Source: Anaerolineae bacterium
GTDB taxonomy: Bacteria > Chloroflexota > Anaerolineae > Aggregatilineales > Phototrophicaceae
Reading direction: 5' to 3'
NCBI GenBank assembly: GCA_030950085.1
Contig: JAUZRW010000013.1
Span: forward strand, 1 to 49,374
DNA length: 49,374 nucleotides
Positions 8,169 to 46,886 of the stretch are shown in pieces. The translations under genes and the position numbers were made by a program. The first letter of the stretch is position 1; every line of letters starts with the position of its first letter. Under the pieces are notes generated by a model that had not been told where the DNA came from, ran no database searches, and saw nothing but the letters and a program-made list of their open reading frames with translations.

Positions 8169-8299
8169 AAAGTAACCTTCGGTATATTTTTACAAAATGC
8201 GTAACGCAGAGGCGCAGAGAATCAGAGATGCAGAGCTTTATTTTGAATAGAAATCTTGGCGCTTTGGCGCTTCATCTTTTTTTGAAGTTCTTTCCAGAC
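8169..8299 (+). repeat. Family 2 dispersed repeat, copy A
   Basis: It begins AGTAACCTTCGGTATATTTT, continues through GCGTAACGCAGAGGCGCAGAG and ends near TTCATCTTTTTTTG. Closely matching copies lie at about 26829-26956 and 30766-30907, and shorter pieces lie near 313, 27760 and 28638. Confidence 0.8.
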
Positions 8300-18230: not shown

Positions 18231-20015
18231 TTACGGGCAAGTCGGTAAGGACACCGTATTTCCGGCAGCATTGCTCACGGTGATAGGACCCAAACCCATA
18301 TAATCACTTGTCCCTAATATCAAAGACCCTGAATCGCCTTGCCCCGTTGCTGATTCGCTATAGCTAGTGGGTAAAGAGATAGCGGATGCCGTAATCGTAT
18401 CACCGCTGTTGCCATTCTGCCATGTGATGGTCGCATCATAACCCACGCCGTTAAGTTTGCAATCACTCAGGCGTGCCGAGAAAGTACCCTGCACAGGCGG
18501 GTTGGGGTCTGGAAGGCGCGTAATCACCCCTGTACGCTGTGTCACACAAAGATAGGCATTATCTTGATAGGCACGCACCTCCCATGATAATTCACTACCT
18601 GTCGGGATTTGCCCCACATTGAGTTCAATCGACGTACTAGGGGTGAAGAATGACTGTGCAAAAGCGCCCGTAAAATCATAGAAGACGATTTCATAGTCTG
18701 TCGCATTAGGCGCAGGTGTCCAAGAAAAGGTATGGTTGCGTGGCGTAATACCCTCAAAGGGACCTAAAAGCCGAAAAGCCGAACACACATCGACAATGAC
18801 TTCTTCTTCTGTGACCACGATATCAATTAGTGGTACAACGACTACAGGCGGTGGTGGCAAGGGTGTCGCTGTCGGTGGTGGGATAGGAGTAGGCAGCATC
18901 TCGCCGGGACAGAATAAATCGACAGGATAATTCAATAGTGACGATGGGATATTTTGCAACATACACCAGTCTGTCCCAATTTCATCCATAGAGACCCATT
19001 GTGCCGCCGTAAAATCACAACTGACAATTTGGTCATTGCTTTTACCATCTAAACCACGATTAGCGGCTTCGCTGAGACAAGCGACACTGCGTTGTCCGGT
19101 TTGAATCACAAGACCTGTTGGATTCATATCGTCATCTAGCACGTCAACCTTGCCATCAATCACAAAGACTTCCATCAAATCATTCGCCAGCAAACGGAAA
19201 GAAACAGTTGAACCGATACGGAAATTCGCGCCATTCACAGTCAACTCAACCTCGAATCCTTCGGGTCCTTGAATGAGGAGCATATCATCGGGGGCTTCTT
19301 GACAGCTTGGTTGCCCGATACCAGTTCGCAGATAAACAGCTTGCATCGGGGTACGACTTCTCTCTTGTTGTGCCGAAAGTGTGTCCAAATCTGGGTTATC
19401 GCGCAAGCGGCTCCGCCTGACCCAACCATCACGGTCATCTAAACGCACTTGCACCCACGCGCCATCAGAACTGAGACCGATTGCTATAAAATTAGACCCC
19501 TGTGCAAAACCTGCCAGTGCATTGAAATTATCGCCAGCACCGCTTCGGACTGTCACAAAATCGTTGCTAATGACCTGCACAGTCATTGTTGTTGCGACCT
19601 CACTGGGTTCAACCGCATTTTCGACTTCCGTATCTCCCAGTAAGATAAAGGTCACATTTTGACCCGGTAATGTATCGGGCAGATTAGCCTGCACATTCAT
19701 CACGGCGACACCCCATGTATCATTATCTTCATCAAGTGGCGAGGTGGTAATCGTTTGCAGTTCAATAATGCTCGTGACATCGGCTGGTTGTGCAAAAAAA
19801 TCATCTGCCACAGGTGTTTGAAACTCGGCACGAACTAAATCATAGCCATAACAGGCTTGATTGTGGTCAATGCTGTCACAATTTGCATCCACTTCGCTAA
19901 GAGCTTGCTCCACCAATAAAGTGCATGTATTTTGTGCTGTAGTGACAGTGATAGAACTGATAGAGAGCAGCATGAGTAAAAGGATAAACACAGACCCGAA
20001 TAGTATTCTTCGCAT
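18231..20015 (-). CDS. Secreted SH3b-domain multidomain protein
   Basis: This 594-residue protein starts MRRILFGSVFILLLMLLS, a signal peptide. AGGGG lies 9 nt upstream of this ATG, so it is preferred over 20024 and 20036. After a Cys-bearing N-terminal domain comes an SH3b domain (VRSGAGDNFNALAGFAQG, AWVQVRLDDRDGWVRRSRLR). A FecR-like beta domain follows (VSFRLLANDLMEVFVIDGKV), then a Pro/Thr linker (TPIPPPTATPLPPPPVV) and an Fn3/Ig-like C-terminal region (FSWTPAPNATDYEIVFYDF). It is probably an envelope or extracellular binding protein. It has no catalytic signature and shares style, not close identity, with the proteins at 12730 and 34083. Confidence 0.82.
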   Translation of the reverse strand: MRRILFGSVFILLLMLLSISSITVTTAQNTCTLLVEQALSEVDANCDSIDHNQACYGYDLVRAEFQTPVADDFFAQPADVTSIIELQTITTSPLDEDNDTWGVAVMNVQANLPDTLPGQNVTFILLGDTEVENAVEPSEVATTMTVQVISNDFVTVRSGAGDNFNALAGFAQGSNFIAIGLSSDGAWVQVRLDDRDGWVRRSRLRDNPDLDTLSAQQERSRTPMQAVYLRTGIGQPSCQEAPDDMLLIQGPEGFEVELTVNGANFRIGSTVSFRLLANDLMEVFVIDGKVDVLDDDMNPTGLVIQTGQRSVACLSEAANRGLDGKSNDQIVSCDFTAAQWVSMDEIGTDWCMLQNIPSSLLNYPVDLFCPGEMLPTPIPPPTATPLPPPPVVVVPLIDIVVTEEEVIVDVCSAFRLLGPFEGITPRNHTFSWTPAPNATDYEIVFYDFTGAFAQSFFTPSTSIELNVGQIPTGSELSWEVRAYQDNAYLCVTQRTGVITRLPDPNPPVQGTFSARLSDCKLNGVGYDATITWQNGNSGDTITASAISLPTSYSESATGQGDSGSLILGTSDYMGLGPITVSNAAGNTVSLPTCP

Positions 20016-20139
20016 GACAACCATCCCCTGAAACATTATCTTGTCATACTTATTGTAGGTTAGTTTCAGATTTTCGCTGGCAGTTCAGGGTGATTGTTAT
20101 CGGTTTTCTACAAAACAAAATGATTACACTTAATTTCTA

Positions 20140-20263
20140 AAGTTATGCAGTTTCTGTTTTGAACCTAATTTTAGTCCAAATGACTATGATAATTAGGTTT
20201 GTAAAAGGTCTTTAAGGGTTAAGTTTTGCCTAAAGACCGCTAAATTTCAAAAGTGCATAACTT
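20140..20263. repeat. Structured 124-bp intergenic element with nested inverted repeats
   Basis: The outer arms AAGTTATGCA (20140-20149) and TGCATAACTT (20254-20263) are perfect complements. Inside lie two separate hairpins. One is AACCTAATT/AATTAGGTT (162-170 and 191-199 after 20000) with an inner TAGTC/GACTA. The other is GGTCTTTA/TAAAGACC (20207-20214 and 20231-20238). The layout is that of a three-way junction. It could be a small structured RNA or a nonautonomous mobile element. It lies between rpiB and the SH3b gene and matches none of families 1-3. Confidence 0.6.
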
Positions 20264-20307
20264 CAGTTACTGTGTAGGAGAATTCGCGGTAGCTCTCCAA
20301 AACTGAA

Positions 20308-20757
20308 TTAAGACTGTTCCATATCTTGAACCTGCTTGAAGCGCCGCATGTAACGGTCTGGTTCGGTGAGGAAGGTTGCGCTGATGAAAGCATCCGCTAG
20401 GCGCTCTGCAACAGCGACACCGACTATTTTTGAGCCTAATGCCATGATATTCATATTGTCATGCTCAACACCTTGCGCGGCACTATAAGCGTCGTGGGTG
20501 ATGGCACAATAGACTCCCTTGATTTTATTCGCCGCAATCGACGCACCGACTCCACTACCACAAACCAAAATACCCCGTTCGGCTTTCCTATCCACAACTG
20601 CCTGACCAACTTTTTTTGCTGCATCGCTATAATCGACACGGACAGCATCGGTATCGACCCCTAAATCAATAATATCGTGACCGTGTTTACGCAAATAATC
20701 GACAAGATGTTGTTTCAACGGGTATCCGGCATGGTCAGATGCAAGTGCTAATTTCAT
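20308..20757 (-). CDS. rpiB: Ribose-5-phosphate isomerase B
   Basis: This 149-residue enzyme interconverts ribose 5-phosphate and ribulose 5-phosphate in the non-oxidative pentose phosphate pathway. It starts MKLALASDHAGYPLKQHL, with GAGG 7 nt upstream of this ATG; the longer frame to 20871 has no support. Cys66 in LVCGSGVGASIAANK matches the catalytic cysteine of the family. ITHDAYSAAQGVEHDNMN carries the conserved His and Asn residues. The related LacAB/RpiB group is hard to subdivide, but RpiB is the usual assignment. Confidence 0.92.
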   Translation of the reverse strand: MKLALASDHAGYPLKQHLVDYLRKHGHDIIDLGVDTDAVRVDYSDAAKKVGQAVVDRKAERGILVCGSGVGASIAANKIKGVYCAITHDAYSAAQGVEHDNMNIMALGSKIVGVAVAERLADAFISATFLTEPDRYMRRFKQVQDMEQS

Positions 20758-20894
20758 GATATGTCCTCTTTCATCGTCATTATACCGCCATTCTAACCAA
20801 TCTGAGCCTGTACGGTAATAGTCGGTTCGGACACATTTCCTGAACACGGTACAATAGGGCGCGAATAGCAACTGTTTACATGGGAGATTTTTTA

Positions 20895-24149: not shown

Positions 24150-24249
24150 TAGTACATGACCAAAAAAGTTTTTATGTAGGGGCGCAAGGCATTGCGCCCA
24201 AAAAACACATAATCTAATTTTCAAAGATTAAATTGGTCATGTAATAGTA
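24150..24249 (-). repeat. Family 1 MITE-like element, copy C
   Basis: It runs from TAGTACATGACCAAAAAAG to TTAAATTGGTCATGTAATAGTA, with the core GGGGCGCAAGGCATTGCGCCC. It is in opposite orientation to copies A and B. Its last five bases (TAGTA) are shared with the start of copy D. Confidence 0.85.
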
Positions 24250-26828: not shown

Positions 26829-26956
26829 AAAGTAACTTTCGATATATTTTTACAAAATGCGTAACGCAGAGACACAGAGAATCAGAGAATCAGAGCATTA
26901 TTTTGAATAGAAATCTTGGCGTTTTGGTGGTTCATCTTTTTTTGCAATTATTTACC
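26829..26956 (+). repeat. Family 2 dispersed repeat, copy B
   Basis: AGTAACTTTCGATATATTTT begins the copy, and GCGTAACGCAGAGACACAGAG and TTTTGAATAGAAATCTTGGC follow in the same order as at 8169. It occupies the promoter-side region of the DUF4230 gene. Confidence 0.8.
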
Positions 26957-26992
26957 GAAGGTTATTTTTGATGATAAGGATGGAGTCAAAGA

Positions 26993-30729: not shown

Positions 30730-30765
30730 AGAGATATTCCTTTAACTGATATAACTCTTGTTCAA

Positions 30766-30907
30766 TAGTAACCTTCGGTATATTTTTACAAAAAGCGTAA
30801 CGCAGAGGCACAGAGAATCAGAGGCGCAGAGCATCATTTTGAATGAGTTTCTTTGCGTTTTTCGCGCCATTGCGGTTCATCTTTTTGTGATTTCTTTCCA
30901 GATGTTA
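30766..30907 (+). repeat. Family 2 dispersed repeat, copy C
   Basis: AGTAACCTTCGGTATATTTT, AAGCGTAACGCAGAGGCACAG and TTCATCTTTTTGTGATTTC occur in the family order. It fills most of the space upstream of msrA. Confidence 0.8.
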
Positions 30908-31667: not shown

Positions 31668-31688
31668 GGATGCTTACTCACCTATCTT

Positions 31689-31787
31689 ACTACTACATGA
31701 CCAATTTAATTCTTGATGATTAGATTTGTGTTTTCGGGCGCAATGCCTTGCGCCCCTACATAAAAACTTTTTTGGTCGTGTACTACT
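31689..31787 (+). repeat. Family 1 MITE-like element, copy E
   Basis: It runs from TACTACATGACCAATTTAAT to TTTTTTGGTCGTGTACTACTG, with the core GGGCGCAATGCCTTGCGCCC. Its right end supplies the TAG stop codon (complement of 31783-31785) of the kinase gene. Confidence 0.85.
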
Positions 31788-33309
31788 GATGACGACGTTG
31801 TTCACCAATGAAACTATCGGTCAATTCACCTTCATCGTTTAAGCGCACACGGTCTTGCTTGGCATCTAAATCTTCTAGGCTGAGACGCTGTTCGCCTTGC
31901 TTTGCTTTTGCGGCAATTTTTGATTTTTCTTGACGCTTGTTCCGCAGCATCTCACGCTGAACTTCGGCTTCAAACTGTGCTTCTGTCCGTTGTGCGCCGG
32001 GTCCATATTTGGAATAATACTCACTGCCGCGCTTGATAACCGCTATCCCCCAGAAAAATAATGAGAAGAAAGGCCAGAAAAACCCTGCTCCGGTGAAGAA
32101 CCAAATCGCCAATAAGATGCTGTTCACCGTGAGATAAGATGTTAAGTTGGCAATAAATTCTTGACGTGCTTTCATCCGTTTCGCCACTTTGCGCCGCACC
32201 AACTCTTCTTCGGTGAGGGCGAGACCGAGTCGTTGACGTAATTCTGTATCAATACGGTCTTCAATCATCTCAGCGAGGTTAGCAACCCCCGTCTTAAAAC
32301 GTTTACCTAATTGAGAAAAATTAATCTCACCCAGATTCACCTCAAATTCAGATTGTCGAGATGTGCGCGGTATCGCACTTGGGATAGCGACTTCTTGCGG
32401 TGGTGCTGTGCCTAAATCATTAAAACGAGGACGTGCTGCAAGTGGCTGTTCATTGGCAGGCTTTGGAAATACTTTAGAATCGGTATTGGCAATCGCATCC
32501 GCAAATGCTTGTATCAGTATCTTGGCTGTCGGGAAGCGGTCACTGGGTTTCTTCGCTAAGGCTCTATCCATCATATCATCCACTTCGGGCGATAAGTCAG
32601 GATTGATATCAGACGGTGTGGTAGGGGTCGCGTTGATATGTCCATTAACGATAATATAAGGTGTATCGCCTTCAAATGGTACGCGCCCGGTGATGAACTC
32701 ATACAGAATCACGCCGAGCGAGTAAATATCCGTTCGACTATCGAGGTCTTTGCTACCTTGTGCTTGTTCGGGTGAAATATAAAAGGGCGTACCGAGCATC
32801 ATATCGGTACTAATCGTTGATGCCCCCATTTCTGCCATGCGTGCCAGTCCAAAATCGGTAATGAAAGGCTGATTGCCGCTATTAATCAAAATATTTGAGG
32901 GCTTCATATCACGGTGCAGAATCCCCTTTTCGTGGGCATAATCTAAGCCTTCGGCAATACTCATCAGAAAATCGCGAGTGTCTTCGAGCGTCAAGCCTGT
33001 TTTGATAGCGTAGCGCTTGAGTGTCATGCCATCGACATATTTCATCACGAGAAAAGGAATCCCCTCGTGTTCGTTATAATCGTAAATTGGCACAATATTG
33101 GGATGTTCTAACTTGGCAACAATCTGTGCCTCACGTTGAAACCGTGTGCGAAAGTCTTCATCTTGCAAGAATGTTTCGTGCATCAGTTTAATCGCTACGT
33201 AGCGGTCAAGTTTTTCGTGATGTGCTTTGAAGACGGTTGCCATCCCACCCTGCCCCAGATGATTCTCAATTTTATAGGAGCCAATCAAGTCTCCTGTTTG
33301 CAATCTCAT
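31783..33309 (-). CDS. Ser/Thr protein kinase with C-terminal 2TM domain
   Basis: This 508-residue Hanks-type kinase phosphorylates Ser/Thr in proteins. Kinase motifs: glycine loop LGQGGMATVFKAH (18-30), Lys41 in VAIKLM, catalytic loop HRDMKPSN (132-139), DFG (152-154), and activation segment GTPFYISPEQAQG. A linker of low complexity follows, then a 2TM domain (about residues 395-450: SYLTVNSILLAIWFF and FFWPFFSLFFWGIAVIKRGS) and a charged helical tail (AKQGEQRLSLEDLDAKQDR). There is no extracellular PASTA or sensor domain. The stop codon lies in a family 1 repeat, so the original C-terminus may have been altered. Confidence 0.9.
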   Translation of the reverse strand: MRLQTGDLIGSYKIENHLGQGGMATVFKAHHEKLDRYVAIKLMHETFLQDEDFRTRFQREAQIVAKLEHPNIVPIYDYNEHEGIPFLVMKYVDGMTLKRYAIKTGLTLEDTRDFLMSIAEGLDYAHEKGILHRDMKPSNILINSGNQPFITDFGLARMAEMGASTISTDMMLGTPFYISPEQAQGSKDLDSRTDIYSLGVILYEFITGRVPFEGDTPYIIVNGHINATPTTPSDINPDLSPEVDDMMDRALAKKPSDRFPTAKILIQAFADAIANTDSKVFPKPANEQPLAARPRFNDLGTAPPQEVAIPSAIPRTSRQSEFEVNLGEINFSQLGKRFKTGVANLAEMIEDRIDTELRQRLGLALTEEELVRRKVAKRMKARQEFIANLTSYLTVNSILLAIWFFTGAGFFWPFFSLFFWGIAVIKRGSEYYSKYGPGAQRTEAQFEAEVQREMLRNKRQEKSKIAAKAKQGEQRLSLEDLDAKQDRVRLNDEGELTDSFIGEQRRHQ

Positions 33310-46787: not shown

Positions 46788-46886
46788 GTAGTACATGACC
46801 AAAAAAGTTTTTATGTAGGGGCGCAATGCCTTGCGCCCAAAAAACACACAATCTAATTTTCAAAGATTAAATTGGTCGAGTAGTAC
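46788..46886 (-). repeat. Family 1 MITE-like element, copy F
   Basis: It runs from GTAGTACATGACCAAAAAAG to TTAAATTGGTCGAGTAGTACC, with the core GGGGCGCAATGCCTTGCGCCC. It shows the cleanest terminal inverted repeats of the set. Confidence 0.85.

Follow-up and report, generated by a model that had tools for sequence, protein, structure and literature searches.

A cloverleaf-folding 130 bp intergenic element of an Anaerolineae bacterium, probably a MITE, has ends similar to those of other short elements

Results

The element and its surroundings

The window analyzed in this study is a 49,374-nucleotide stretch of an Anaerolineae bacterium (assembly GCA_030950085.1, contig JAUZRW010000013.1), whose genome assembly (G000) comprises 5.09 Mb in 266 contigs. 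Between an ORF of the RpiB/LacAB isomerase family and a 601-aa ORF lies a noncoding stretch with a cloverleaf-like fold (Table 1). The stretch comprises only 130 bp, it is overlapped by no ORF of 80 aa or longer, and no promoter- or terminator-like site was found within it.

Table 1. Features of the element, its window neighbors, and the target duplications found at its copies and at related elements.
Feature	Position	Strand	Remarks
Complete element, 130 bp, CTG end to TAG end on the minus strand	20137..20266	-	Boundaries common to C204:81941-82070 and C249:4223-4352
Terminal inverted repeat, right end, CTAAAGTTATGCA	20137..20149	.	Near-identical word ends elements with another interior
Terminal inverted repeat, left end, CTGAAGTTATGCA (minus-strand reading)	20254..20266	.	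CTTTTGAAATT follows inward
Internal palindrome 1	20162..20199		9 bp stem 20162-20170/20191-20199; from RNA folds
Nested 5 bp stem within internal palindrome 1	20172-20176/20182-20186		From RNA folds
Internal palindrome 2	20207..20238		10 bp stem 20207-20216/20229-20238, one G-U; from RNA folds
Flanks of the window copy	left 20130..20136, right 20267-20273	+ (left)	ttaattt (left), ttactgt (right); 5/7 identical
RpiB/LacAB isomerase-family ORF	20308..20871	-	PF02502, E 3.4e-46; element 41 bp beyond stop codon
601-aa ORF without Pfam match	18231..20036	-	Element 100 bp ahead of first possible start
Target duplication, C204 copy			TGTATAA, 7 bp, perfect
Target duplication, C15 copy			TAATAATA, 8 bp, perfect; TAA repeat, low complexity
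Target duplication, G105 L106			TAATTTGA, 8 bp, perfect

A preliminary description of this DNA had reported a 124 bp unit in which a perfect 10 bp outer stem encloses two hairpins, one of them with a nested stem. The structure was found as described: AAGTTATGCA (20140-20149) was fully complementary to TGCATAACTT (20254-20263), and both hairpins, including the nested stem, appeared in the RNA folds of both strands. The extent, in contrast, had to be revised. The inverted repeat extends outward to CTA/CAG, giving 13 pairs with one G-U on the minus strand; the outer stem is therefore the core of a 13 bp terminal inverted repeat, CTRAAGTTATGCA, and the symmetric unit is an element of 130 bp (20137-20266). 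Inward of its left end lies CTTTTGAAATT, most of which is common to the group B elements described below.

A three-way junction of this kind had also been called uncommon by chance. In comparison with shuffled sequences, the fold was far stronger on both strands. The RNA fold reached -36.6 kcal/mol on the plus strand (shuffle mean -20.33, z -5.20) and -33.9 kcal/mol on the minus strand (z -5.93), and a DNA fold of 20137-20266 gave z -5.28; in each case 0/200 shuffles folded as well. Fold strength was thus about equal on both strands, which is how a DNA palindrome behaves, and by itself it does not point to an RNA.

Two other repeat families were observed in the window. A MITE-like family with units of about 97 bp, whose ends resemble TAGTACATGACCAA and which contains the palindrome GCGCAATGCCTTGCGCCC, was located at 217-313, 24150-24246, and 46789-46885, and partly at 31688-31789. 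A family of 130-nt repeats starting with AAAGTAACCTTCGGTATATTTTTACAAAATGCGTAACG occupied 8169-8298, 26829-26958, and 30765-30894.

Copies of the 130 bp element in its own genome

The cloverleaf stretch was said to match none of the repeat families present, which was correct within the window among the repeats listed (at least 25 nt; all but one family and one pair) but not genome-wide. Two further full copies, both 98% identical to the window copy, were detected on other contigs of G000 (match limits C249:4222-4360 and C204:81941-82071), together with nine short additional matches limited to the element ends. The C249 match overran the element by seven bases into one flank. The three copies agreed over exactly 130 bp, from CTG to TAG, and outside these boundaries only a few AT-rich bases were alike. 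Of the four positions that varied among them, three are unpaired, and the change at the fourth disrupts a pair of the nested stem; none of the changes was compensatory. Counted by pairs, 0/42 were compensatory and 41/42 were invariant, which is a weak test with three near-identical copies.

All three copies lay between ORFs, and their neighboring genes were unrelated, with none in common. The C204 copy was near a response-regulator gene. Starting 24 bp past the C249 copy (L038 1655-2301) were an 80-aa ORF and, behind it, a PIN-domain gene, which are possibly a toxin-antitoxin pair.

Similar ends on other elements

Ends of the same kind were found on elements with a different interior, here termed group B, of which two complete copies (202 and 204 bp) were identified in G000. 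The left end of group B, CTGAAGTTATGCACWTTTGAAATT, is nearly that of the 130 bp element, its right end, CTAAAGTTATGCGTTTTCTGTTTTG, is similar, and its interior also folds well (z -4.99). Group B occupied 20 places in G000, counting fragments and the query itself (the C15 copy); this number was derived from 26 matches to the C15 copy by subtracting four ends of the 130 bp element and joining two split places. The number of whole elements is below 20 because some places are fragments (short ones at C81, C91, and C10) and at nine the match runs up to the end of a contig. Two further short elements, at C10:8458 and C32:12855, had ends that look alike but agree more loosely. The end word, allowing at most one mismatch, occurred at 31 places in G000, compared with 13 for a reversed-pattern control.

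We then considered the distribution beyond this genome. The 130 bp element matched none of the 97 other genomes of the family (1/98, its own genome only), and a covariance model, R1, applied with strict filters, detected no copy in the 153 other genomes of the order (1/154, again its own). A check for covarying copies, suggested in the preliminary description, thus yielded further copies in the genome (the two full ones) but none in relatives by R1, and no compensatory changes. The left end alone (20-mer, at most 2 mismatches) was present in 3/154 genomes of the order, namely, its own (12 places), G105 (5), and G140 (1). G105, which belongs to another family of the same order, contained elements of its own with similar ends, CTCAAGTTATGCACTTTTG and CTGAAGTTATGCATTTTT. 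Four of these copies measured 184-217 bp, and a fifth, of 299 bp, is doubtful; one of the G105 copies folded with z -3.25. When a 114-base piece was compared with G105, 11/24 matches started at the left end (40/46 candidates scored).

In a sample of the class that did not include G105, 2/396 genomes matched, its own and G366, which had a single end. An exact 23-mer gave 0 matches in genome_contigs, an exact 19-mer gave 0 in viral_contigs, and the element was found in neither plasmids nor phages (0 each). Two lone matches to the exact 19-mer, in a Flavobacterium MAG and in Faecalibacillus faecis, were both inside long ORFs and were taken as chance.

Target duplications

Duplications were scored at the ten copies with both ends recognized, that is, three of the 130 bp element, two of group B, and five from G105 (including L118, which is doubtful), and copies with one end were excluded. 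Perfect 7-8 bp duplications flanked 3/10 complete copies, one from each of these sets (Table 1), compared with 0/270 mismatched flank pairings. The other 7/10 copies, including the window and C249 copies, had no perfect duplication. The flanks of the window copy are a decayed target duplication at best and were excluded from the duplication count. The 8-base flanks were 80% AT, compared with 54% for the window; this preference is weak evidence, because a high AT content may simply be usual in intergenic DNA and because half of the flanks belong to a genome other than that of the window.

Candidate parent transposase

Tabulating ends and ORFs around the end-word places of G000 revealed no gene with such ends, and none of the nine ORFs in four of these loci matched a transposase in Pfam. 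Searching the draft assemblies of G000 and G105 with the DDE_Tnp_1 profile revealed no gene with these ends and no gene of the ISPepr1 type (YREK). The profile matched two genes in G000, for which the closest NCBIfam models were those of IS701, and one in G105, an ISAs1 gene. One of the G000 genes, cut by a contig end, scored below the NCBIfam cut-off. Around these two genes the inner 10 bases of the end were matched loosely (one place with 1 mismatch and four with 2), and no match followed CT-AA. Around the G105 ISAs1 gene, the 13-base end was not found with fewer than 3 mismatches. The IS701-like gene on C217 (L082 1360-1917), truncated by the contig end, was followed after its stop codon by GCGAAAGTCCTA. 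On C62, a CRISPR-like repeat-spacer array with the unit GTTTCAACCCCCCGAAGGGGTAAGCCCCATATGAGAC extended downstream of position 2112 to the end of L083, adjoining an IS701-family transposase gene.

The ends themselves were compared with those of known groups. Table 1 of PMC2266710 lists, for the ISPepr1 subgroup of IS4, the end pattern YT-AA-YTT---A together with 7-8 bp direct repeats, and the text of that paper describes 5'-CT ends and preferential insertion into AT-rich DNA. In the window copy, each of the two ends fitted 7/8 of these tabulated positions, as did 0.17% of the 13-mers of the window, and position 9 was A rather than T. Among 22 left ends, 19 fitted 7 of the tabulated positions and 3 fitted 6; among ten group B right ends, nine fitted 6/8 and one fitted 5/8. 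IS982, whose ends mostly start with AC and whose direct repeats range from 2 to 60 bp in the excerpted part of PMC7335449, was also considered as the parent and was rejected on these two features.

Discussion

The results presented here suggest that the cloverleaf stretch is very probably the body of a non-autonomous MITE with matching ends, a familiar sort of mobile element. This reading, and with it the earlier idea of a mobile element, is supported by the copies at further sites, by the similar ends that enclose different interiors, and by the target duplications flanking some of the copies. The element has terminal inverted repeats, occurs at several sites, and carries no transposase gene, and duplications occur in the family as a whole. 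Like bacterial MITEs in general, it is short and noncoding, folds strongly, and is present in several copies, some with target duplications; unlike them, this subtype has only three copies, and its three-way junction stems from two extra internal palindromes. The best overall explanation, to which we assign a probability of roughly 0.85, is a MITE that relies on a DDE transposase acting in trans for its movement. The 13 bp terminal repeats and about ten conserved bases inside each would serve as binding and cleavage sites for such an enzyme, which would move the element and insert it at a staggered 7-8 bp cut in AT-rich DNA. For the three 130 bp copies, insertion would have occurred between genes. 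The internal palindromes would be passengers that may adopt a stable three-way fold if transcribed from neighboring genes, and an effect of the element on neighboring transcripts is possible.

The preliminary description had also proposed a structured RNA acting on the neighboring gene. A cis-regulatory leader or small RNA that had spread in a few copies would agree with the strong fold on both strands and with the position of all three copies between ORFs, for example, ahead of the small ORF on C249. This explanation is nevertheless highly improbable. The neighbors of the copies are unrelated, the window gave no match to Rfam 15 at the gathering score, the differences among the copies include no compensatory change (weak evidence with three near-identical copies), R1 found nothing in the 153 other genomes of the order, and ends like these also delimit elements whose interior is different; the lack of promoter- or terminator-like sites and the nearly equal folding of both strands also argue against it. 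An element of the REP/REPIN or IS200/IS605 type, for which a single-strand (HUH) transposase recognizing hairpins would be responsible, would likewise be palindromic and present in several copies, and REP/REPIN sequences also lie between genes. Against this origin, which we regard as extremely improbable, stand the terminal inverted repeats, which are longer here than in REP/REPIN sequences, and the 7-8 bp duplications at some of these copies, which HUH elements are not known to make.

If the element is a MITE, the identity of its parent enzyme is a separate matter. A member of the IS4 family of the ISPepr1 type is our preferred candidate, at only slightly better than even odds, because the comparison was made after the ends had been seen and ten groups were on offer. 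CT ends, agreement at 7/8 of the tabulated end positions in the window copy, direct repeats of 7-8 bp, and AT-rich targets are in accordance with the ISPepr1 features given in that source; in contrast, the element has no transposase gene, differs at position 9, and its parent was not found among the DDE_Tnp_1 matches. Derivation from the IS701-like transposases encoded in its own genome is unlikely. These two genes are the sole DDE_Tnp_1 matches in the assembly, and the word after the C217 gene resembles the ends of the short elements at C10:8458 and C32:12855. However, IS701, as described in PMC2266710, makes 4 bp duplications and has ends of the form ---YACT-Y--YR, compared with 7-8 bp and 4/7 positions (by eye) here. 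At the loci of the two genes, moreover, the matches to the inner 10 bases were all loose, and CT-AA preceded none of them. It is very unlikely that the enzyme is of an undescribed type or came from outside and that the three-way palindromes were kept for helping transposition or insulating neighboring transcripts. The 98% identity of the three copies would then imply recent mobility, in an assembly in which no matching transposase was found. Excerpts of the open-access literature on MITEs of Chloroflexi, ISPepr1, or cruciforms (including PMC3542288) contained no description of the element.

In conclusion, reading the element as a MITE explains a striking cloverleaf as the body of a transposon, and the end family CTRAAGTTATGCA links short elements of differing makeup in two bacterial families that belong to one order. 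This may help to annotate such genomes and to avoid taking such folds for regulatory RNAs.
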